A stretch of DNA of 64,000 nucleotides from Bacteroidota bacterium (GTDB taxonomy: Bacteria > Bacteroidota > Bacteroidia > 2-12-FULL-35-15), in contig JAOQAE010000004.1 of assembly GCA_025963725.1 (NCBI GenBank), positions 555,616 through 619,615 on the forward strand, given 5' to 3'. The notes beneath the pieces are model-generated. The model was not told the DNA's origin. It made no database searches and worked only from the letters and a program-made list of their open reading frames with translations. Positions 2,191 to 44,388 of this stretch are shown here, piece by piece; the first letter of the stretch is position 1, and each line of letters begins with the position of its first letter. The position numbers and the translations under genes are program-made.

Positions 2191-5100
2191 ATGAAATTAC
2201 TTCCTACATGTATTCTTGCAGGCCTGGGATTATTGTCCTCTCTTTCTTTTGCCCAGCGCGGTAAAGACGGGAACGTGACCGTGAATACAGCGAATCGTAT
2301 CGTGAACGAATACACCGGTGTAACGGCCAATGTGGCTGCCGGTGCAACATCGATTTCAGTTACCGCCAGCAGCTTAAATGCCAACGGGCGCTTTACAGGG
2401 AACCTTGCCCCCGGCGATCTCATTATGATCATCCAGATGCAGGGCGCCACCATTCTCGGCCAGCCCGATGCAGGTGTGCCTGCCATCAGCGATCCGAACG
2501 ATCCTACCTGGGGAACAGTTACCAGCTACAATAATTCAGGAAGATATGAATATGCCGAAGTGCTCGCAGTTCCGAATGCGACCACCATTACGGTTGACTG
2601 CGGGCTCACCTATAGTTATACTGCCACAGGGAAAACACAAGTTGTGCGTGTGCCGCGATACAATTCACTTACGCTCACTGCGCCCGGCGTGCTTACCTGC
2701 CAGGCATGGAGCGGGACCACCGGCGGGGTGCTGGCAGTAGAAGTGCTCGGAAATACTACCATGAATGCGGGTTCAAAGATCAATACCACAGGAACCGGCT
2801 TCAGGGGCGGTGCGGTGTTCACAACCACGGGGAGGACAACCACCGGGCTGTATTCCTGCGCATCGCTCGATGTAGGAACAAATAAAGGAGAAGGCATTGC
2901 AGGATATGATACCGACTATACGCCTTATGGCGGAAAGTTCTGCCGTGCAGCCCCTGCAAATGCCGGCGGCGGCGGTAACGTATGGAATACCGGCGGCGGC
3001 GGCGGCGGAAATGCCGGCAATACCGCGGCATGGACCGGGCAGGGAAATCCGAATACAAGCGGCGCGGGCTGGACAGCAGCCTGGAACCTCGAATCCCCGG
3101 GCTTTGCAACTTCCACATCTTCGGGTGGAGGAAGAGGCGGATATTCTTTTTCAAGCTCCAACCAGAACGCTACCACGCTCGGGCCCGGAACTCCCGGTGT
3201 TACCAATGCATGGGGCGGATCGTACCGTTATAATTTAGGAGGGCTCGGTGGCCGTCCGCTCGATTATTCCGGCGGCAGGATCTTCCTTGGCGGCGGCGGC
3301 GGCGCAGGTGAGCAGGATAACGGACAGGCAGGCGCAGGCGGAAGAGGCGGCGGGATCATTTATTTTGTAACATACGGCACATTCACAGGAACCGGCAACG
3401 ACTCTATTATTTCCGACGGCGCAGTTGGCGGAAGCACTAATATTTCAGGCTCAAATCCGGGTAAGGATGCGGGCGGCGGGGCAGGAGCAGGCGGAACTAT
3501 TATCCTTAATACGACTGGCGTTGTTTCGGGTGTTGCCATTCGTGCAAATGGTGGCATCGGCGGATTCCAGCTTCAGAACACCAGCGGGTTCTTCAATCTT
3601 ACCGAGGCGGAAGGCCCGGGCGGCGGCGGCGGCGGCGGCTACATCGCAGTGGCCAACGGAACACCGGCTCAGCAGGCAAACGGCGGCAACAGTGGCTATA
3701 CGCAGTCTTCACAACTTTCCGAATTCCTTCCCAACGGCGCAACCATGGGCGGCGCCGGACTTACAGGACAAACCATTACCAATTTTACGATCTCGGCAGC
3801 CAACGTAACCATTTGTTCCGGCAACACGGCCACGCTTACGGCAACATTAACAGGAACAGTTCCCCCGGGAACAACCATCACCTGGTGGAATGCGCAAACC
3901 GGCGGCTCTGTAGTAGGTTCCGGCTCTTCGTTCACAACACCTGCGCTTGCAAGCACAACAACCTATTATGTGGGCACCTGTCCGGGTACATACCGGATCG
4001 CGGTAGTTGTAACTGTTAATCCCGGCTTAACGGTAACCGTAAATTCACCAACGATCTGCTCCGGCGGAACGGCAACATTAACGGCTTCCGGCGGCACCAC
4101 TTATACCTGGACCGCGGGCGCTACACCAACAGGTGCGAACACTGCTACCGCAAGCCCGGCATCCACAACAACCTTTACGGTAACCGGCACAACAGGAAGC
4201 TGCTCGGGAACCGCCGTAGCGACCGTTTCCGTGAACCCTGCACCGGTGGCAACCTTCAGCTATACCGGAACACCTTATTGCCAGAATGCAGCTAATCCCT
4301 CTCCAAATTTCAGCGGCGGCGGATCTGCCGGCACATTCACATCCACGGCAGGCTTAAGCATTACAGCTGGTACGGGTGTGGTGAACCTCGCGGCCAGCAC
4401 ACCGGGAACCTACACGGTAACCAACACGATCCCTGCAGCGGGCGGTTGTCCTGCCGCAACAGCCACTTCCAGTATTACTATCACGGCGCAGCAGGTGGCA
4501 ACCTTCAGCTATGCAGGAACTCCTTATTGCCAGAATGCAGCCAATCCTTCGCCAACATTCAGCGGCGGCGGCGTTGCAGGTGTATTCAGCTCCACAGCGG
4601 GCTTAAGCCTTAACTCTTCAACCGGGCAGGTGAATCTTCTTGCCAGCACCCCGGGAACATACACCGTTACAAATACAATTGCAGCTTCGGGCGGATGCCC
4701 TACCGTTACTGCAACATCACCGATCACGATCACTGCGCAGCCGGTAGCAACATTCAGCTACACGGGAACACCATATTGTAAAACGGCTGCGAATCCATCA
4801 CCTGCATTCAGCGGCGGCGGTGTTGCCGGAACATTTACATCCACAGCCGGCCTGAGCATTACTGCGGGAACCGGAGTGGTAAATCTTTCGGCAAGCACGC
4901 CCGGAACGTACACGGTTACGAATACGATCCCTGCTGCAGGCGGCTGTCCTGCCGCTACAGCCACCGCTTCCATCACTATCACAGCGCAACCTGTAGCCAC
5001 ATTCAGCTACACGGGTACGCCTTATTGCCAGAACGCAGCGAACCCATCCCCGACATTCAGCGGCGGCGGAGTTGGGGGAACATTCACGTCCACCGCAGGC

Positions 5101-8100
5101 TTAAGCATTAACGCCGCAACAGGCGCTGTTAATTTATTGGCCAGCACCCCGGGAACTTACACGGTAACAAATACCATTGCCGCTTCGGGCGGATGTGCTG
5201 CAGTAACGGCCACATCCCCGATCACCATTACGGCACAACAGGTGGCTACATTCAGCTACACGGGAACTCCCTACTGCCAGAATGCGGCCGATCCGTCACC
5301 AACATTCAGCGGCGGCGGAGCTGCGGGAATATTCACATCCACCGCAGGCCTCAGCATCACAGCGGGCACGGGCGTAGTAAACCTTGCCGCAAGCACGCCG
5401 GGAACCTATACGGTAACCAATACCATTCCTGCTGCAGGTGGCTGTCCGGCTGCCACAGCTACCGCTTCCATTACAATTACGGCACAGCCGGTAGCTACGT
5501 TCAGCTATACGGGAACACCGTATTGCCAGAGCGCTGCCGATCCATCGCCAACGTTTAGCGGCGGAGGTGCTGCAGGAACATTCACATCCACGGCCGGCTT
5601 AAGCATTGCAGCCGCTACGGGTATTGTAGACCTTTCGGCAAGCACGCCCGGAACCTACACGGTGGCCAATACTATTCCTGCTTCTGGCGGATGCGCAGCT
5701 GCAACAGCCACATCGTCGATCACCATCACTGCGCTGCAAACAGCGGCCTTCAGCTATACCGCATCACCGTATTGCCAGGATGCTGCCGATCCTTCTCCTG
5801 TTTTTGGAGCAGGAAGCGTTGCGGGTACATTCACATCCACTGCCGGCCTGAGCATCAACGCGTCTTCCGGGCTGGTAGACCTTGCAGGAAGCACGGCAGG
5901 AACATATACAGTTACCAATACGATCGCTGCCTCGGGCGGTTGTCCTGCAGTTACGGCAACTTCATCCATTACCATTACACCGGTACAGAGCGCGGCCTTC
6001 AATTATTCATCTTCAACGTTCTGCGTTTCGGGTACCGATCCGTTACCAACGATCACCGGCACACCGGGCGGAACATTCACGGCTTCTCCTGCCGGCATCA
6101 GCATTAATACCGGCACAGGAACGATCACGCTGGCCTCGACCGCATTGAATACATACGCCATAACGTATACCACGGCAGGGCCTTGTCCGGCGAGCAGCAC
6201 CATTAACGTTACCATCACCAATGCACCTGTAGCTACGTTCAGCTATACGGGAACTCCTTATTGCCAGTCGGGCAGCGATCCATCGCCAACGTTTAGTGGC
6301 GGCGGAACGGCCGGAACCTTTACATCCACGGCAGGATTGGTATTTGTAAGTGCTGCAACGGGTGAGGTCGACCTTTCGGCGAGCAGCCCGGGAACGTATA
6401 CCGTTACCAATACGATCCCCGCTTCGGGCGGATGTGCAGCTGCAACGGCAACTTCATCCATTACGATCACGGCTCCGGCCATCGCGGCATTCAGCTACGC
6501 GGGCACACCTTATTGCCAGAACGGAACAGATCCTTCACCAACGCTTGCGGCAGGCGGAACTGCCGGCACGTTCAGTTCCACAGGCGGACTCAGCATCAAT
6601 TCCTCAACGGGCCTTGTCGACCTTTCGGCAAGCACTGCAGGCACATACACGGTGATCAATACTGTGGGCGGCAGCTGCGGCAGCACGGATTCAACTACCA
6701 TTACTATTACTGCGCCGTCTGATGCCACCATCACTCAACCTTCCACCATCTGCGTAAGCGCTGCTGCATTTAACCTCAGCGCTGCAACAGGCGGAGGAAC
6801 CTGGACGGGAACGGGCATTACAGACGGGCTTAACGGAACATTTGATCCTGCCACTGCAGGTACCGGCTCTCACGTGATCACTTACACAGTAGGCGGATCA
6901 TGCGGTGCAACGGATACGGTTACCGTAACCGTAAGCTCCCTGCTCAATGCAACGATTACCACTATACCACCAGCCTGCGTGGCTTCTTCTGCCTTCAATC
7001 TTTCGGCGGCCACAGGCGGCGGAACATGGAGCGGAACAGGCATCACGGATGGTACAAACGGAACATTCGATCCTTCGGTAGCGGGTGTGGGAACATTCAC
7101 CATCACCTATACGATCAGCGGAAGCTGCGGTAATTCGGATACGGCGCTTGTTACCGTTTCTTCAAATTCCAACGCAACCATCACTCAACCGGCGGCAGTT
7201 TGCCAGGGTGCAGCTGCATTCAATTTAACGGCAGCCACTTCGGGTGGAACCTGGTCGGGAACAGGCATCACCGATCCGGTGGCGGGCACATTCGATCCTT
7301 CGGTTGCCGGGGCGGGAACATATACAATTACGTATGCCATCAGCGGAAGCTGCGCGGCAAGCGATACGGTGCTCGTTACGGTGAACACCGTTGCCAATGC
7401 CACTATTTCCCCTGTCAGCAGTGTATGCGTGGGCGCGTCGCCATTCAACCTTACAGCAGCTTCACCGGGTGGTGCGTGGACGGGAACAGGGATCACAGAT
7501 GCCGCGAACGGAACGTTCAGCCCTGCCACTGCGGGTGTGGGCGGACATGTGATCACCTATAGCATCAGCGGCTCATGCGCTGCATCGGATACCGTAACAG
7601 TGAACGTAACCGCACCGCTCAACGCAGCGATCAGCAGCGTTGCACCGGTTTGCGCAGGCTCCCCGGCATTTAATCTTACTGCTGCAACTGCCGGCGGAAC
7701 ATGGTCGGGAACCGGCATTACAAACACCGCTGCGGGAACATTCGACCCTGCCGTTTCCGGCGCAGGAACATTTGCGATCACTTATGCGATCTCCGGCGCC
7801 TGTGGCGACACCGCCACGCAGAGCGTTACAGTGAACGCCTTGCCTTCGCCTGTCGCCACGCCTGATATTACAAGCGGCTGCGCACCGGTATGCGTTCAGT
7901 TCATCGAATCGGTAAGCACAACCTGCACATCTGTAAGCTATGATTTTGGCGACGGTACCACCGCGGGATCTTCCAATCCTTTACATTGTTATACGGCCGC
8001 AGGCACTTACGGATATACCATTACCTGTACCGATGCGAACGGATGCGTGGGTACAGCCACTGTTCCTGCGATCATCAATGTATCGGCACAGCCGGTTGCA

Positions 8101-33345: not shown

Positions 33346-34806
33346 TTACAGCCTCTCTACCCTCTTCCCCAGCCACTCATGAAAAGGGATCAGCTCCGGG
33401 CTGAAATACTCCCAGGAAACATCCGAGCTCTTTGCTGCAAGCTGTGTGAGAATGTTCTTCAGGGCTTTATTTCCGGCGTCATATTCAAAATCATTCTTTT
33501 CCAGCTCCCGCAGGCATTTCGCGATCAGGTGATCCCGCTTCTTTATTTTATCATCCTGCTTGTTCCTGTCGAGGTATTTTCGCAGGGCTTCGAGTGTGCG
33601 GGATGCGTCGGAGATCTTGTTAAGCTCTATGTAGAGCATGATGGTGAAAATGCGGATCACAATATTCCATTCACTTTTATCTTTTTCAATTTCCAATGGT
33701 TTTAAAAGTAGCTTCATGGCTTTGTTGAATTCTCTTTGCTCAAAATGAACGCAGGCTTTGTAAAAAGTATATTTTGCCTTTCTGAATAATCCCGTGAATA
33801 GGGTGGGATATGTAAGCAAGTGATCAGCGCTCGATTCTGCTAAGTTGAGCTTTTTGTTGTAAAAGAATACACCGAATTCGATTTCATTGCAGATCATCAT
33901 GTCAATACTATCGGGACTAAAATAGTCTTTCGCTTTTTGTATGAACAACTCAGCTTCCCGCCGCCTGTTCAGAAACAGTGAGTAATAGCTTAAATTGTCA
34001 TACATAAAGCCAGCTCTTTTTTTGCGGTAAATGCATGGATGCTTTTGCATAAGCTCCAGAATCCTTTTACACTGTTTAATTGCCGAAGTATATTCTTTTT
34101 TATACTCAAATAATATGAGATTGAATAATTGCAGGTAGTAATTTATTTGTTGAGATTTTGTTGCCCTGTAGTCCGATTTCATTTTTTTTACTGAAGAGAT
34201 TAAAAATGCGAACAACTCCTGTCTGGAACGGGATTTAATTCCTTCAATATCTAAAATGAACCAGTAATACCGATCGGTGGCCTCATACATCGCTTTGTTA
34301 CAACGTTCATAGAATATTATTTTTTTATCTATGCGTTCAAAGTGTGATTTATACACACGGGCGAAGTGAAGATGTTTTTTGAAAGTAAGCGCTTCTATTA
34401 AGATGGGATACACTTCATATTTCTCCGCCGTTTTGATCAAATTGCTTAAAATATGATCTATCACTTCTGTTTTTGATTTAGATGAATTTAGATTCAGAAT
34501 TTTGCATTGAAGCATTTGTTTTTTCAGCTGGAAATGCTTTTGGTCAAAGTCACAAAAGGTCGTTGACAGGTAGTTTTCATCCATCATCAAGGCATCCAGG
34601 CTCATTTCAAAAATGCGCGATTTGATCTTGTTCAGGGCAGCCGGGCTTTTATACTGTACAGGCCTGCCTTCCGAAAGCTGCTCAAAAACCGAGATCGTTT
34701 TGCTTTGCTCCGCATTTGAAATGTGATTGCGGAGGTAACGGCCGATCGCCTTTTTTTCGCCCGCCTGCAGGTTGCCTAAAAAATTATCGATGAATGTATG
34801 TGCCAT
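33346..34806 (-). CDS. Helical repeat protein, paralogue A of a pair flanking T9SS cargo
   Basis: A 486-residue, presumably cytoplasmic protein with no signal peptide or membrane segment. It appears all-helical, with TPR-like spacing in the middle (YTSAIKQCKRILELMQKH, REFNKAMKLLLKPLEIEKDKS). It ends in a distinctive tail DVSWEYFSPELIPFHEWLGK. The same architecture and tail occur in the gene at 39389-40885, so they are paralogues. The N-terminal 60 residues (KKAIGRYL..., then KTISVFEQL) may be a helical adaptor. I do not recognise a named family. Codon use is AT-rich. It is divergent from the T9SS pair at 35051-39345. Confidence 0.65.
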   Translation of the reverse strand: MAHTFIDNFLGNLQAGEKKAIGRYLRNHISNAEQSKTISVFEQLSEGRPVQYKSPAALNKIKSRIFEMSLDALMMDENYLSTTFCDFDQKHFQLKKQMLQCKILNLNSSKSKTEVIDHILSNLIKTAEKYEVYPILIEALTFKKHLHFARVYKSHFERIDKKIIFYERCNKAMYEATDRYYWFILDIEGIKSRSRQELFAFLISSVKKMKSDYRATKSQQINYYLQLFNLILFEYKKEYTSAIKQCKRILELMQKHPCIYRKKRAGFMYDNLSYYSLFLNRRREAELFIQKAKDYFSPDSIDMMICNEIEFGVFFYNKKLNLAESSADHLLTYPTLFTGLFRKAKYTFYKACVHFEQREFNKAMKLLLKPLEIEKDKSEWNIVIRIFTIMLYIELNKISDASRTLEALRKYLDRNKQDDKIKKRDHLIAKCLRELEKNDFEYDAGNKALKNILTQLAAKSSDVSWEYFSPELIPFHEWLGKRVERL

Positions 34807-34830: not shown

Positions 34831-34896
34831 GGCTAAAATACTTCATAAAGGCATTGAAATTGGCTCATGTCATTTTGGTGGTTGATTTGTCCATGG
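34831..34896 (+). promoter_or_regulatory. TTTGTCCATGG element, copy 1
   Basis: GGCTAAAATAC at one end and GATTTGTCCATGG (34884-34896) at the other, 66 bases in all. Two other copies lie at 40966-41039 and 41111-41173. It sits between the divergent genes at 33346-34806 and 35051. The function is unknown. Confidence 0.6.
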
Positions 34897-35050: not shown

Positions 35051-36037
35051 TTGAATAAATCCTTTTACATATTACTTTTTATTCTTGCTTCCGCTTTTAC
35101 TAAGGCGCAGACTAACCTTGTGTATAATGGAGATTTTGAAATGTACGATACTTGTCCGGTAATTGTTTCTCAACCTGGTGATCCACAACTTGAAACATGC
35201 TTTGGCTGGAAATCTCCTACCGATGCCACAAGTGATTATTATAATGTTTGTGCTACTTCAATTGTTGGTGTGCCAACTAATACTTTCGGTTATCAATATC
35301 CTTATTCCGGTAATGCCTATTGTGGAATTTTTATTGAATATGTTGCACCACCTTATTCTACTTATGGATACTGGTTTGAGTATCTTCAGGGAGGGCTAAT
35401 CACACCGCTAAAGGCTGGATATGAATATGAATTTTCATGTCAAGTTGTAATGAGCGATTTTGGCTGGGACTATGCATTGTCGAAATTTGGAGCGGCTTTT
35501 ACACCAAACGCAATTTCAAAAACAGATGGCAAGCCATTTAGTGGAGTTACACCGCAAGTACTAAATTCAGCTACAAATTATCTCACTGACACCCTGCATT
35601 GGATGGAGATTAAAGGGAAACTTGTCGCACAGGGAGGCGAACAGTACATTACACTTGGTTTTTTTTCTGATACCATAAATTTAGATACTTTAAAGCAGCT
35701 TGCTCCTTTCTTTGATCCAAACCATTTTGGAACTTACTATTTCATTGATGCCTGCACTTTGACTGAAACCGGAAAAGTGGAGGGCGCTTCAAATATTTTC
35801 ACTCCCAATGGTGACGGACAGAACGACTTGTTTTCAATTGCAGGTCTTCAAAATGATGAAAAAGTAGTGGTGTTTGACCGTTGGGGTATGAAGGTCGCTG
35901 AGTTTTCAGGCGAAAACAGCGGATGGGATGGAAGAACAACAGCAGGCGAAAACTGTGTGGACGGTGTCTATTATTATATTTTACAGCGGGAAGAAGAAAA
36001 AGAATCATTAAAGGGGTTTGTTCAGTTGGTAAGGTAA
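35051..36037 (+). CDS. Secreted protein with type B T9SS sorting domain (TTG start)
   Basis: A 328-residue secreted protein. TTG 35051 follows directly on an in-frame stop (TGA 35048-35050), so no upstream start exists, and it is needed for the signal peptide MNKSFYILLFILASAFTKAQ. The mature part begins NLVYNGDFEMYDTCP, typical of Bacteroidota jelly-roll or carbohydrate-binding-like domains (residues about 22-235). The C-terminus (NIFTPNGDGQNDLF, FDRWGMKVAE, DGVYYYIL) is a type B sorting domain. It is followed after 14 bases by the S74 tailspike-like gene, so the two are likely one operon. Confidence 0.85.
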   Translation: MNKSFYILLFILASAFTKAQTNLVYNGDFEMYDTCPVIVSQPGDPQLETCFGWKSPTDATSDYYNVCATSIVGVPTNTFGYQYPYSGNAYCGIFIEYVAPPYSTYGYWFEYLQGGLITPLKAGYEYEFSCQVVMSDFGWDYALSKFGAAFTPNAISKTDGKPFSGVTPQVLNSATNYLTDTLHWMEIKGKLVAQGGEQYITLGFFSDTINLDTLKQLAPFFDPNHFGTYYFIDACTLTETGKVEGASNIFTPNGDGQNDLFSIAGLQNDEKVVVFDRWGMKVAEFSGENSGWDGRTTAGENCVDGVYYYILQREEEKESLKGFVQLVR

Positions 36038-39388: not shown

Positions 39389-40885
39389 TTATTTCTTCTT
39401 TGCTTTTTTCAACAGCCATTCATGAAAAGGAATGAGCTCGGAGCTGAAGTATTCCCATGACATATCAGAATCCTTTTCAGAAAGCTGTTTAAGCATTTTT
39501 GTGGCGTTCTTGTTTTCGGGATCGTACTCGAAACCGTTCTTTTCAAGTTCTCTCAGTAGTTTAACAATAATTACGTCGCGTGGCCTCACTTCATCGGTTT
39601 TGCTGGTGCGCTCCATGTATTTGCGCAGGGATTCAACATGGCTGAAGGCTTCGTCGATCTTATTCATTTCGATATAGATCATAATGTTCAGGATCCGAAG
39701 CGAAATGTTCCAGCGGCTTTTATCTTTTTCAATTTCAAGTGATTCATTTAGAAGTAATAGTGCATCTTTAAAATTGCTTTCAGCGAAAAAGACACAAGCA
39801 CGATAATAAACGAATTTTGACTTTAAAAATTCACCAGTATCAATAGCTGAATGATTTAAAAGTTCACTGAGGCATTTCTTTGCGTCATTATAATTTTCGT
39901 TATAAAAATTGGCATAGAACTCTTGTTCCTTTGATTTTGCATAATTCAAGCTGTTTTCAAAGTAATACCTCTGGGCATGCTTCGCATCTTTAGTGGCATC
40001 GGAGTATTTCTTTAAATAGGTTTTAAATAGACTTAAATTATCATGAACAAACCCCATGCGTTCACTGCGATATATAGATTTATGTTTTTTAAGAATAGAA
40101 ATAAGTTTATTACAGCATTCAATTGCAAAAGAGTAATTCTTTTGTCTTTCCGCAAGGGCAAACTGCATAATGTGGAGATAATAATTAATTTGTTCCGATT
40201 TTGTTTTTTTATAATCAGCCCTCATTTCCTGTATAGAAGCCGCTAAATGCTTGTCGGCTTCTAACTTGGAAAGTGTTTTAATAAAACCATCATTTAATAT
40301 TAATCTGTAATAATTATCATTAGCATTTACTAATGCTTGACGGCAATATTCATAAAATTTAAGGGTCGTGTTTATTTTTTCAAAATCGGCTAAGCCTGAT
40401 CTAATGCCTTTAAAGTACTTTTTAGTATGAAGAGCTTCAACCAAGATGTCATACAGCTCAAACTCCGTTGAGATATCAATAATTTCATTTAGCAATTCAG
40501 ATATTGCTTCTGTTTTATCTTGATTTAAAACCCTTAATGAAATTTTACAAACCAAAAGCTTTTTTCGAAGATTGAAATTAATAATATCATTTTCAGTAAA
40601 CAGTGTAGAGTTCGTAATATATTTATCGAGTGTTAGAGCTTCAAGAATTTTGCTAAATAAATTATTTTTAAGATCAGTTACCCTTTTGGTACCTGTTTCT
40701 GCAATGATCATTTCATCTGTGATCGCTTCTCGAGTGTTAATAATGAATTTGAAAAGTTTGACTTCCATTACTTCATGACTACCCTTATCAATTAAGCCTT
40801 GAGTTTTATTCAGGTAGTCTTCTACCAAGCGAACTTCAGTATAAGATAAACCATGTATAAAACTAATGATATGAAGGTTGGCCAT
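39389..40885 (-). CDS. Helical repeat protein, paralogue B of a pair flanking T9SS cargo
   Basis: A 498-residue protein. I chose ATG 40885 (MANLHIISFIHGLSY) over TTG 40909 because it aligns with the start of paralogue A. Shared features are an N-terminal helical segment, central TPR-like repeats (YSFAIECCNKLISILKKH, FKDALLLLNESLEIEKDKS) and the tail DMSWEYFSSELIPFHEWLLK. It has no signal peptide. It is convergent with the S74/T9SS gene and AT-rich. The two copies A and B bracket the T9SS pair, which suggests a segmental duplication or a functional link. No known function. Confidence 0.65.
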   Translation of the reverse strand: MANLHIISFIHGLSYTEVRLVEDYLNKTQGLIDKGSHEVMEVKLFKFIINTREAITDEMIIAETGTKRVTDLKNNLFSKILEALTLDKYITNSTLFTENDIINFNLRKKLLVCKISLRVLNQDKTEAISELLNEIIDISTEFELYDILVEALHTKKYFKGIRSGLADFEKINTTLKFYEYCRQALVNANDNYYRLILNDGFIKTLSKLEADKHLAASIQEMRADYKKTKSEQINYYLHIMQFALAERQKNYSFAIECCNKLISILKKHKSIYRSERMGFVHDNLSLFKTYLKKYSDATKDAKHAQRYYFENSLNYAKSKEQEFYANFYNENYNDAKKCLSELLNHSAIDTGEFLKSKFVYYRACVFFAESNFKDALLLLNESLEIEKDKSRWNISLRILNIMIYIEMNKIDEAFSHVESLRKYMERTSKTDEVRPRDVIIVKLLRELEKNGFEYDPENKNATKMLKQLSEKDSDMSWEYFSSELIPFHEWLLKKAKKK

Positions 40886-40965: not shown

Positions 40966-41039
40966 GATTAAAATATATCTAATTGATTGATTGGTAGAGT
41001 GTTACTTCGAGTCGAATTGTGAGGCTCATTTGTCCATGG
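40966..41039 (+). promoter_or_regulatory. TTTGTCCATGG element, copy 2
   Basis: GATTAAAATAT (40966-40976), TCGAGTCGAATT (41007-41018) and ATTTGTCCATGG (41028-41039). Copy 3 lies 72 bases downstream. No ORF covers 40886-41244; apart from these repeats I see only AT-rich sequence with a CAAAATT/AATTTTG dyad. Confidence 0.65.
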
Positions 41040-41110
41040 AAAGCTCTTGTAATTTGATCAATTTTGTTTCTATAAAATCAAAATTTATTATTGAGTTTTT
41101 AAAAGAAAAC

Positions 41111-41173
41111 GATTAAAATATTGATTATCAGTGATTTGCTCCGAGTCGAATTTCGGGGGTGATTTGTCCACGG
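41111..41173 (+). promoter_or_regulatory. TTTGTCCACGG element, copy 3
   Basis: GATTAAAATAT (41111-41121), CCGAGTCGAATTT (41141-41153) and GATTTGTCCACGG (41161-41173). It shares the same three blocks as copy 2 and lies 72 bases upstream of the small secreted-protein gene at 41245. Confidence 0.65.
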
Positions 41174-41244
41174 TTTATCAAGTGGAGTGGCGTTATTTTG
41201 TCAAAGAATTGAATGACATCCCTAACCCACACAAATCACAGATC

Positions 41245-41541
41245 ATGAAACACATTACAAAATCAGTATTAAAAGCGTTTTTAATTGTTGTTCTTTTAAC
41301 AGGGAGCTCGGCAGTAATGTCTTCTGCAAGCGTAAAAACCGTAAGCGTGGCGAACGCGGTAACCTATAATCAGGTTTATGAATATTTAGTGGCAAATGGC
41401 TACACGGTAATTACGTTAGAACCTAAGGCAGGAACGAAATATGACTGGATTGCCCGTACTGTTAAGAATAATGTTACTTATTGTACTACCATTTATTGTA
41501 CATCATATAGTATTATAACTCATGGCGATGTAGCGATGTAA
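41245..41541 (+). CDS. Small secreted protein, paralogue of the downstream anchored protein
   Basis: A 98-residue protein. I chose ATG 41245 over an upstream GTG (41131). It gives a signal peptide (MKHITKSVLKAFLIVVLLTGSSAVMSSA). The mature ~70 residues align with the C-terminal part of the next gene: VTYNQVYEYLVANGYTV, then W.A..VKNN, T, I..HGD. Two cysteines (in VTYCTT and IYCTS) are unique to this copy. No known family is recognised. It is predicted to be exported; a possible binding domain is suggested by its size and fold. It is followed 27 bases later by its membrane-anchored relative. Confidence 0.6.
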   Translation: MKHITKSVLKAFLIVVLLTGSSAVMSSASVKTVSVANAVTYNQVYEYLVANGYTVITLEPKAGTKYDWIARTVKNNVTYCTTIYCTSYSIITHGDVAM

Positions 41542-41568
41542 TTTAGTACTACTATAATTAAATAAAAC

Positions 41569-41889
41569 ATGCAATTAATATTCACCTCATTACCGGAAAC
41601 ATTGTTCTTCATCGTATTTATTGCAGCGATCGGGATCCTGGTATACATCTCCGTCAGTATGATCGTAAAGGACATGCGGGAAGAGAAGAAGAAAAAGGTG
41701 AAGTCGAGTGTAACAGCAAGGCAGGTGAGCCATTATTTCACAGGTAAAGGCTACGTGGTTTGCAACATTACACCTGTGAAGAACAGCAATAAGTGGCTTG
41801 CCTTCTTAGTAAAGAACGGCGAATACCTCATCGCTACCGTGTTTACTAACGGTGAGCGCATTGAAGGCCACCTCGATTCGCTTGAATGA
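41569..41889 (+). CDS. Small membrane-anchored paralogue of the 41245 protein
   Basis: A 106-residue protein with one N-terminal membrane helix (about residues 10-32), a basic stop-transfer stretch (KDMREEKKKKVKSS) that puts the C-terminal domain in the cytoplasm, and then a domain (SVTARQVSHYFTGKGYVV, WLAFLVKNGEY, IEGHLDSLE) resembling the secreted neighbour. So the same domain appears once exported and once cytoplasmic. No known family. The terminator at 41957-42007 closes this pair. Confidence 0.6.
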   Translation: MQLIFTSLPETLFFIVFIAAIGILVYISVSMIVKDMREEKKKKVKSSVTARQVSHYFTGKGYVVCNITPVKNSNKWLAFLVKNGEYLIATVFTNGERIEGHLDSLE

Positions 41890-41956
41890 TTTTTTTTATA
41901 TAGTTTTTTTGTTTAAAGAGAAAAGTTTAATGAACATGCTTGGTTATTAAACTCTA

Positions 41957-42007
41957 AAAGGCAAGGTGTTAACGGAGGAGTAGCCGTTTTCATCTTGCTC
42001 TTTTTTT
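41957..42007 (+). terminator. Terminator after the small paralogue pair
   Basis: AAGGCAAGGTG pairs with CATCTTGCTC (with two wobble pairs) around an inner AACGG/CCGTT hairpin, followed by seven T residues. An additional AGTTTAAT/ATTAAACT dyad lies just upstream (41924-41953). Confidence 0.75.
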
Positions 42008-42043: not shown

Positions 42044-43126
42044 ATGTCCCGAACGTTGAAGATATTGATTTTAGAGGACAATTCAGGTGATGCGGGACTG
42101 ACGCTGAGGGCTTTACGAAGCTCAGGCCTTCAATTTGAACACCGCGTAGCAGATAATAAAGTGGATTATATTGTGGCGTTGCAGACTTTTCAGCCGGATG
42201 TTATCCTTTCCGATCACTCACTGCCCTCCTTTACTTCTGAAGAAGCATTGCCCATTGCAAAAGACATTTGCAAGACAAGCGCTTTCATCCTTGTTACAGG
42301 CACCGTATCGGAAGAATTCGCCGTAAAGATCATCAAAGCCGGCGCCGACGATTATGTGCTGAAATCATCCCTTACCCGGCTTCCCTCCGCCATACTGAAT
42401 GCCCATGCCAAGCGCAAGGCGGAAATGGAAAACGAGGAGCACATGAAAAAGCTTACGGCCGTGAACAAGGAGCTCCAAACCTTCATTTACCGCGCTTCGC
42501 ACGATCTCCGCGGCCCGCTCAGCTCTATGAAAGGCCTCATCAATGTTGCCAGGATAGAAACCGAGCCGCTGCAAATGGCCAAGCTCATCAGCCTGATGGA
42601 CTCCAGCGCCGAAAAGCTGGACAAGATCGTGGTCGACCTGATCGAAACCCTCGGAATCCGCGACCGCAGTGTAAAGCGGGAAGAGGTAGACCTTGAGGCC
42701 ATTGTTACAGAGCTGCTTGCTTCCTATCAGGCCGTCATTAAAAAGGGCAACCTGCGCATTTCCGTGGAAACCGAGTTTTCCACCGGCTTTTTCTCCGATG
42801 GGGCCATTTTAAAAATGGTGCTGAAAAGAGTGATCGATAATGCACTGAGGTTCCATAATTATGCGGTTCCGGGCTCCTACATCAGCATCAGGCTCAAAAC
42901 CGATTCCGACGGCGCCTTCATCTCTATTGCCGACAATGGCACCGGCATTAAGGAAGAGCTGCAGGAAAAAGTATTCGATATGTTCTACCGCGCCAATAAC
43001 GAGTCGGAGGGCAGCGGCCTCGGCCTGTATCTTGCCAGGATCGGCACCGAGAAGCTGGGCGGCCGCATCAGCCTCAAAAGCATTGAGCACATTGGCACAA
43101 CTGTAGAGATCACCATTCCTTCCTGA
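42044..43126 (+). CDS. Receiver-histidine kinase fusion protein
   Basis: A 360-residue cytoplasmic signalling protein. It has an N-terminal receiver domain (acceptor D57 in VILSDHSLPSF; conserved lysine in YVLKSS), then a HisKA helix with H153 in YRASHDLRGP, and a HATPase domain with DNGTGI and GSGLGLYLAR. There is no membrane segment or sensor domain, so input must come by phosphotransfer through the receiver or by protein contact. It is followed 65 bases later by a sister protein whose receiver is close in sequence but ends in a phosphatase domain. Confidence 0.87.
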   Translation: MSRTLKILILEDNSGDAGLTLRALRSSGLQFEHRVADNKVDYIVALQTFQPDVILSDHSLPSFTSEEALPIAKDICKTSAFILVTGTVSEEFAVKIIKAGADDYVLKSSLTRLPSAILNAHAKRKAEMENEEHMKKLTAVNKELQTFIYRASHDLRGPLSSMKGLINVARIETEPLQMAKLISLMDSSAEKLDKIVVDLIETLGIRDRSVKREEVDLEAIVTELLASYQAVIKKGNLRISVETEFSTGFFSDGAILKMVLKRVIDNALRFHNYAVPGSYISIRLKTDSDGAFISIADNGTGIKEELQEKVFDMFYRANNESEGSGLGLYLARIGTEKLGGRISLKSIEHIGTTVEITIPS

Positions 43127-43191: not shown

Positions 43192-44388
43192 ATGAAAAAG
43201 CATATAAAGATCCTATTGCTTGAAGATAACCCTGCAGATGCAGAGTTGATCAGCCGGGAGCTGAGCCGCTCCGGGATGCTGTTTTCCATGCATGTGGTGG
43301 ATAGCCGCGAAGAGTTCATCATCGGCCTTAATAACTTTGAGCCGGATATTATCCTGTCCGATCATTCCCTGCCTTCCTTTAATTCGCTGGAGGCCTTTGC
43401 CATCGTCAATAAAAATTACAACATTCCCTTTGTGCTTGTAACGGGTTCCGTTTCGGAAGAGTTTGCCGTAACCTGCATGAAAGCGGGAGTGAACGATTAT
43501 ATCCTTAAGAATTCGCTGGTGCGGCTGCCGGCCGCCGTAAACAACATACTGGCGGGCAATGTGCTGAAAAAGGAAAAGGAAGCGGTGGAGGAGCTGCACC
43601 GCCAGCTGAAGAATGCCTTCAGGGAGATCGAGGAGAAAAACAAGGCTATCACCGATAGCATCGTATACGCACGCCGCATCCAGGAAGCCATGCTGCCGGA
43701 GCCATCGCGGCTCGACGAGCTGGTATCGGGTTGGTTTGTTTTTAACCAGGCGAGGGATATTGTGAGCGGTGATTTTTACTGGTTCGAGAAGTGCCATAAC
43801 CGGCTGATCGTGGCTGTAGCCGATTGTACAGGACATGGCGTGCCCGGCGCGCTCATGAGCGTGGTGGGAATAGGATTGCTAAACCGCATCGTGAATGAGA
43901 AGCATATTACGAAGCCTGCCGAGATCCTGCAGCACCTGAATCATGGCATCCGCCGCTTTTTCAGGGATAATGACACGAAGGACGGAATGGACATCGCGCT
44001 GTGCAGCATCGACATCCATACAAACCAGGTAGAGTTTGCCGGAGCAAACCGTCCTCTATGGATCATGCACCAGGGCGGGCTCGAGGAGATCCGGCCAACA
44101 AAGCTGCCAATAGGCGGCTTCCGCGGTTCGGATGGCCCCGAATATGAAACGCATATCCTGCAGGCGGAACCCGGAGATATTCTTTATCTTTTTACAGACG
44201 GATTGCCGGATCAGTTTGGCGGAGACAAGAACAAAAAGCTGATGAAGAAACGGTTCAGGAATTTTATCGCTTCCCTGCGCTTCAGGCACATGATAGAGCA
44301 AAAGGTGATCATTGATGGTTTTGTGAACGACTGGAAAGGCGATCACGAGCAGGTGGATGATATCCTGATAGTAGGACTAAAGATATAG
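43192..44388 (+). CDS. Receiver-PP2C (SpoIIE-type) phosphatase protein
   Basis: A 398-residue protein. The receiver domain (D57, LSDHSLPSF) closely resembles that of the preceding gene, a coiled linker follows (about residues 125-160), and then a SpoIIE/RsbU-type PP2C domain with YARRIQEAMLP, DIVSGDFYW, VADCTGHGVPGALMS, DGMDIALC and a final DDILIVGLKI. All the metal-binding aspartates appear present. Such proteins dephosphorylate STAS anti-anti-sigma partners when activated by phosphorylation. A STAS-like protein is encoded at 63420 but not beside this gene. Confidence 0.88.
   Translation: MKKHIKILLLEDNPADAELISRELSRSGMLFSMHVVDSREEFIIGLNNFEPDIILSDHSLPSFNSLEAFAIVNKNYNIPFVLVTGSVSEEFAVTCMKAGVNDYILKNSLVRLPAAVNNILAGNVLKKEKEAVEELHRQLKNAFREIEEKNKAITDSIVYARRIQEAMLPEPSRLDELVSGWFVFNQARDIVSGDFYWFEKCHNRLIVAVADCTGHGVPGALMSVVGIGLLNRIVNEKHITKPAEILQHLNHGIRRFFRDNDTKDGMDIALCSIDIHTNQVEFAGANRPLWIMHQGGLEEIRPTKLPIGGFRGSDGPEYETHILQAEPGDILYLFTDGLPDQFGGDKNKKLMKKRFRNFIASLRFRHMIEQKVIIDGFVNDWKGDHEQVDDILIVGLKI

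Follow-up and report, generated by a model that had tools for sequence, protein, structure and literature searches.

A small exported domain with an inner twin beside a divergent TPR gene in a Bacteroidota bacterium: a possible counterpart of RRNPP signalling

The RRNPP (RRNPPA) systems of Bacillota, which include Rap-Phr, NprR-NprX, PlcR-PapR and AimR-AimP, pair a small exported product with a cytoplasmic TPR protein encoded beside it. Peptide/TPR signalling of this sort is placed in the Gram-positive Bacillota (PMC10075063, PMC9765709), the pheromone gene of Bacillales systems lies directly downstream of the receptor gene (PMC9765709), and tandem pheromones inside one propeptide are known among RRNPPA systems (PMC11343458). 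From the Bacteroidota, PMC13419125 mentions N-acyl-cyclolysine signalling, which shares the phylum with the locus described below but employs small molecules rather than gene-encoded proteins or peptides. A search of an open literature collection found no peptide/TPR signalling system in Bacteroidota, which is weak evidence, preprints and most subscription journals being outside its scope.

Here we describe a locus of an uncultured Bacteroidota bacterium in which a gene for a small exported protein likewise adjoins a gene for a TPR protein whose location is predicted to be cytoplasmic. It lies in a stretch of 64,000 nt (assembly GCA_025963725.1, contig JAOQAE010000004.1, positions 555,616-619,615, forward strand), which we call the window and whose features, numbered from its first nucleotide, are the following.

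33346..34806, minus strand: second TPR gene, of the same family as the next, with no small-domain gene adjacent
39389..40885, minus strand: TPR protein of ~500 aa, candidate receptor, divergent from the exported gene; predicted fold Rap/NprR-like, with LGN tied
41031..41066, plus strand: promoter-like element TGTCC-N23-nnnYTTTG, first copy
41165..41200, plus strand: promoter-like element, second copy, with the ATG of the exported gene 80 nt downstream
41245..41541, plus strand: exported 98-aa protein with signal peptide, a domain of one helix and four strands, and the C-terminus D-V-A-M
41569..41889, plus strand: 106-aa inner twin with one N-terminal helix and the same domain, lacking a D-[VIM]-x-[MFLI] end
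41956..42005, plus strand: intrinsic terminator after the pair (-22.1 kcal/mol, z -4.55)
42044..43126, plus strand: receiver-histidine kinase gene downstream, possible output
43192..44388, plus strand: receiver-SpoIIE phosphatase gene downstream, possible output

An earlier, sequence-only reading of this DNA had described the two small genes as one domain encoded twice, exported in the first copy and kept in the cytoplasm by a membrane anchor in the second. We judged the topology of both products from hydrophobicity and charge counts. At its N-terminus the 98-aa protein is basic and then hydrophobic (Kyte-Doolittle scale, best 19-residue mean 1.97), and an AxA-like site, ANA, lies directly N-terminal of the domain, in agreement with the proposed signal peptide. 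The 106-aa protein has a strong single N-terminal helix (2.77), flanked by a net charge of -1 on its N-terminal side and of +4 over the 15 residues that follow, so that by the positive-inside rule its C-terminus would lie inside, as expected of the helix with a basic stop that had been suggested. The two domains do align (BLASTP E 4e-6, 30% identity over 56 residues), and a family profile, of which both proteins are rows, matches them with E 1e-34 and 3e-33; the two are thus homologous. Within its own genome, each is the best or second-best other copy of its partner. Pfam and NCBIfam hold no model that reaches its cut-off for either protein, so the domain keeps its status as one without a recognised family, and the terminator reported beside the pair is borne out by the folding of 41956-42005. 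A search of viral contigs with the 106-aa protein found no relative.

Searching a genus set of 36 genomes with the 19-row profile of the small domain, and assigning copies to the exported or inner class by inspection, we found 20 copies, spread over 9 genomes and divided into 14 exported and 6 inner ones. In the genome of the window itself, exported copies also occur on contig C1 and on contig C6, two in all. Across the phylum the profile matched 18 of 395 genomes, namely that of the window and 17 others weakly (E 2e-4 to 0.008); these weak matches were not counted as homologues, the two of the 17 that were inspected being CoA-binding proteins. Since this search returned only the genome itself and weak matches, the domain is taken to be limited, within a sample of genomes rather than a census, to the 9 genus genomes and one further MAG (nzgw121). 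The window-type loci number 15, with 19 exported and 6 inner copies, and come from the genus genomes and from locus L105 (JAHEYF010000126.1). L105 is one of 12 loci obtained by scanning named genomes with the TPR alignment, every one of them from an entry titled as a MAG of Bacteroidetes/Bacteroidota. It carries five tandem exported small-domain genes (3988-5749), each ending in SILGHEDIPI, and a small HTH-like ORF (3489-3731) downstream of the array on the same strand.

The sequence-only reading had asked whether the two genes always occur together, and had named their never being adjacent elsewhere as grounds for its rejection. Neither is the case, since in 6 of the 15 loci they stand side by side, which also shows the placing of the domain on both sides of the membrane (by charge counts) to be a conserved arrangement, and the other 9 carry exported copies alone. 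That reading had also suggested sensing or immunity-like pairing. Sensing fits the neighbourhood, as described below; immunity does not fare well. Two related proteins encoded side by side and placed across the membrane from each other might indeed be a toxin and its immunity protein, but the 9 twinless loci, one of them with five exported copies, would leave exported toxin genes with no protective gene beside them, and no toxin family is matched in Pfam or NCBIfam, so that we hold this explanation to be very improbable. The twin is also variable in its N-terminus: an anchor is present in three of the six inner copies and a hydrophobic segment is missing altogether from two, while the sixth (in G010) is ambiguous, having two possible starts of which the longer includes a hydrophobic segment of uncertain orientation. 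A membrane anchor is therefore not a constant feature of the twin. This variability, together with its lack in 9 loci, might be taken to mean that the twin is a functionless relic of tandem duplication and that the function rests with the exported protein and the TPR gene alone. Against this, a branch with full support (100/99) sets the inner copies apart as a single clade, retained in 6 genomes, and between the window and G032 the twins are 67% identical (106 residues) and the exported partners 47% (107 residues), so that the twin is not decaying faster; a relic thus seems improbable to us. The pair, in any case, is not what all the loci have in common: what accompanies the exported protein in every one of them is the divergent TPR gene.

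In all 15 loci an exported gene is divergent from a TPR gene of about 500 aa (with an interrupted frame in L035), and the TPR and domain profiles match an identical set of 9 among the 36 genus genomes. Of 18 TPR genes found in the genus set, 14 lie opposite a gene for an exported small-domain protein. The other four comprise, besides the window's second TPR gene, single copies on contig C1, in G018 (near a contig end) and in G032. The second window gene faces an ORF at 35051 for an unrelated exported protein of 328 aa, with a GATTTGTCCATGG motif between them (34884-34896), and the one on C1 faces an unrelated exported-looking protein of 127 aa. Such arrangements lend some weight to another explanation, in which the TPR protein would be a regulator, of DNA or of a response regulator, and the exported protein a periplasmic or secreted effector under its control, for example a PepSY- or cystatin-like inhibitor, with the twin doing the same on the inner face. 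We have also seen TPR genes that adjoin a different small exported-looking protein of 126-127 aa in L039 (7049-9168) and L108 (4992-7314; GLHFTGVK-type); these proteins do not match the small-domain profile.

The predicted structure of the small domain bears on the same question. Modelled for the exported copy alone, from an alignment containing both exported and inner copies, it is compact, with one helix and a four-stranded sheet, which goes part of the way towards the comparison of folds that the sequence-only reading had proposed; a compact folded product would suit an effector. PepSY and cystatin-like domains likewise have a helix followed by a four-stranded sheet, and the effector explanation may draw on PepSY_2, whose match (E 0.046, 14.2 bits) falls below its cut-off of 24.3 and hence does not place the domain in that family, and on the lipoprotein CD1622, the first Foldseek match (E 0.37) of a fold search that gave nothing at E <= 0.001. 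The C-terminus points elsewhere. It reads D-[VIM]-x-[MFLI]-COOH, a motif picked after the loci had been seen, in 19 of 19 exported copies versus none of the 6 inner copies, and the five tandem copies of L105 agree in every one of their last 10 columns, compared with 12 of the 60 preceding ones. This conserved tail is the last strand of the predicted domain. A tail that is invariant and confined to exported copies fits a signal better than an effector.

The model of the TPR protein (mean pLDDT 86) has a helical N-terminus and shows a TPR superhelix of the kind found in RRNPP receptors. Its four best structure matches, with Z 20.0-20.9 over ~270-300 residues, are NprR, RapJ together with its pheromone, and RappLS20, which appears twice. 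The eukaryotic TPR protein LGN, with Z 19.8, is tied with Rap, and the fold alone does not separate them. In sequence, a search of the PDB with the TPR protein did not retrieve any RRNPP chain at E <= 1, and among family models only TPR models of Pfam matched the TPR proteins, below their cut-offs, and none of NCBIfam. No HTH model of Pfam matches the protein, the N-terminal part of which was barely covered by the structure comparison.

Between the TPR gene and the pair lies a 54-nt direct repeat containing the two promoter-like elements. We considered the repeat as the ends of an insertion sequence and dropped this idea; the genome has one further copy, which is partial and precedes a regulator gene. 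Sense TGTCC stands upstream of the small gene, in its gap to the TPR gene, in all 15 loci (one antisense; 1.6 on average after single-base shuffling), and 13 of the 15 have the spaced form TGTCC-N22-24-nnnYTTTG (none antisense; 0.02 on average after shuffling), the promoter patterns having been picked, like the C-terminal motif, with the loci in view. The TTTG end is similar to the -7 box of Bacteroidota promoters. Genome-wide, WKTGTCC-N22-24-WNYTTTG has 18 matches compared with 15 for the reversed control, and because this loose pattern is hardly commoner than its control we claim no large regulon. The stricter GGNTGATTTGTCCAYGG, allowing up to two mismatches, finds 4 sites and 0 controls, one of the sites preceding an orphan NarL-type response regulator. 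The orphan NarL-type regulator on C1, which has a related element before it, is 53-54% identical to those found close to the small gene in G018 and on C6. A hairpin of 7 pairs (41139-41158, CTCCGAG...TCGGGG) that immediately precedes the second element in the window may be an operator.

Downstream of the pair, a homologue of the receiver-histidine kinase also follows the small gene or the pair in L029, L030 and L037. Where the window has its receiver-kinase genes, L031 (4139-4549), L033 (5438-5848) and L032 (5363-5611) have small proteins after the pair that are PAS-like in appearance; the one of L033 has no match in Pfam.

The TPR protein has relatives beyond the genus. Profile-profile comparison of the window type with two outer TPR groups gave E 1.8e-19 over 417 columns and 2.7e-7 over 408 columns, and the two outer groups match each other at E 4e-40. 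A TPR profile from which the window-type rows had been removed picks out 18 of 602 ORFs at E <= 4e-12, all of them TPR ORFs. The merged profile finds relatives in 25 of 395 phylum genomes, compared with 11 of 395 for the window-type profile alone, and in one family, f30, which may be Hymenobacter-like, they are present in 118 of 120 genomes, with only 15-20% identity between the window protein and those of f30.

We examined 50 loci of this family, the best 30 plus 20 chosen from other genera. In 49 of them a divergent ORF with a hydrophobic start (50-237 aa) begins 253-383 nt from the listed TPR start, the exception (L171) being at a contig end. These ORFs carry a motif of G, 1-3 small residues and W, once in 24 of them and 2-16 times in 25. 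As a control, 1 of 36 other long ORFs of the f30 loci passes the test for a Gly-rich-Trp motif and a hydrophobic start, the motif having been seen beforehand. The family models gave nothing above cut-off for the precursors compared with them. A homologue of SBP_bac_5 (OppA-type) is found in 48 of the 50 loci, and in neither the window nor 12 other window-type loci. Upstream of the f30 precursors, [TG]TCC-N23-nnnYTTTG occurs in 38 of 49 regions (antisense 0; shuffled mean 0.44), and in 20 of these loci (141 kb, both strands) 16 of its 23 occurrences, by our count, separate the TPR gene from the precursor. The spacing of this element is thus common to both kinds of system, window-type and f30, as is the receptor, although with so few fixed bases the likeness of the element could also have arisen by convergence. 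TPR relatives facing repeat-peptide precursors, with an OppA-type binder nearby, again fit a signal better than a regulated effector, and we consider the effector explanation unlikely on the whole.

Several further observations concern these precursors. L186 has three precursor-like ORFs, each ending in GGTGSWDDNN. Many of the hydrophobic N-termini in L156-L205 begin with acidic or neutral residues, and often the basic residues typical of a signal peptide are missing. In L202-L205 (g193 and other f30 genera), two or three tandem TPR genes face one precursor.

In other families, judged by eye, a precursor-like divergent ORF is present in 7 of 12 loci of a first set (L141, L143-L147, L149), of which L144, L146 and L147 are f30 loci counted again among the 50, and in 8 of 20 of a second (L237, L238, L241, L245, L248, L250, L252, L255), of which L255 is the same place as L149. 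No clear precursor was seen by eye in 5 of the 12 and in about 12 of the 20 (L236 being ambiguous), and the spaced element is present in only 2 of 25 upstream regions of these families. L149 (6071-6232, PYLIDRGENN three times) and L241 (1917-2060, IIDRGE three times) have second short ORFs of near-identical peptides, which adjoin a precursor ending in D-R-x-E-D.

In its resemblance to the RRNPP systems, then, the window has a small gene of predicted export beside a candidate receptor, as do all window-type loci and the 49 loci of f30, and a TPR model whose best fold matches are Rap and NprR; the f30 relatives add short precursors, conserved and often repeated peptides, and an OppA-type binding protein. 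It differs from them in the divergent orientation of its genes, in its phylum, in the lack of a sequence match to RRNPP receptors, in a product that is a predicted folded domain with an inner twin where RRNPP propeptides are unstructured, and in a TPR protein with no identified N-terminal HTH, which RRNPP receptors other than Rap possess. Because a search for sequence homology to that family was negative, we do not file the system as RRNPP; our claim is that it may work like one.

We propose signalling of this sort on the grounds of the exported product, the neighbouring TPR protein, the constrained or repeated peptide, the peptide-binding protein of the relatives and the common promoter element. 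For the window, we see the balance as even on whether the 98-aa exported protein acts as the signal and the divergent TPR protein as the receptor of an RRNPP-like module, with the twin as a cytoplasmic mimic or partner. The analysis shows the homology of the domains, their export and topology features, the strict linkage of the small domain to a TPR gene that occurs in the same genomes, and the constraint on the C-terminus, as well as the common promoter element, the TPR fold and the homology to TPR proteins that face repeat-peptide precursors in another family. Binding, uptake, regulation and the role of the twin we infer as follows. The small protein would leave the cytoplasm through its signal peptide, and it, or a C-terminal piece bearing D-[VIM]-x-[MFLI]-COOH, would be the ligand of the cytoplasmic TPR protein; since the window product is a predicted folded domain, either the whole domain or a cleaved tail may serve. 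The TPR protein, directly or via the neighbouring two-component output, would then act on TGTCC-N23-nnnYTTTG promoters, that of the signal gene itself probably among them. The 106-aa twin, which keeps the fold at the cytoplasmic face and is missing the exported tail, would be placed to meet the TPR protein without export and may be a mimic, a competitor or a co-ligand for the receptor.

The wider proposal, that Bacteroidota carry a Gram-negative counterpart of RRNPP made up of TPR receptors, divergent exported precursors, many of them with peptides in tandem, and, in one family, an OppA-type binder, and that the window is a derived form whose signal is a folded exported domain with a constrained C-terminus and whose cytoplasmic mimic is kept at the inner membrane, falls for us just short of an even chance. 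If it is true, RRNPP-like peptide/TPR signalling would exist in Bacteroidota too, and would be nearly universal in the f30 family, where it would be testable in these relatives of the window with synthetic peptides read off the genome. The window itself would raise the question of why a bacterium should keep a cytoplasmic twin of an exported signal.
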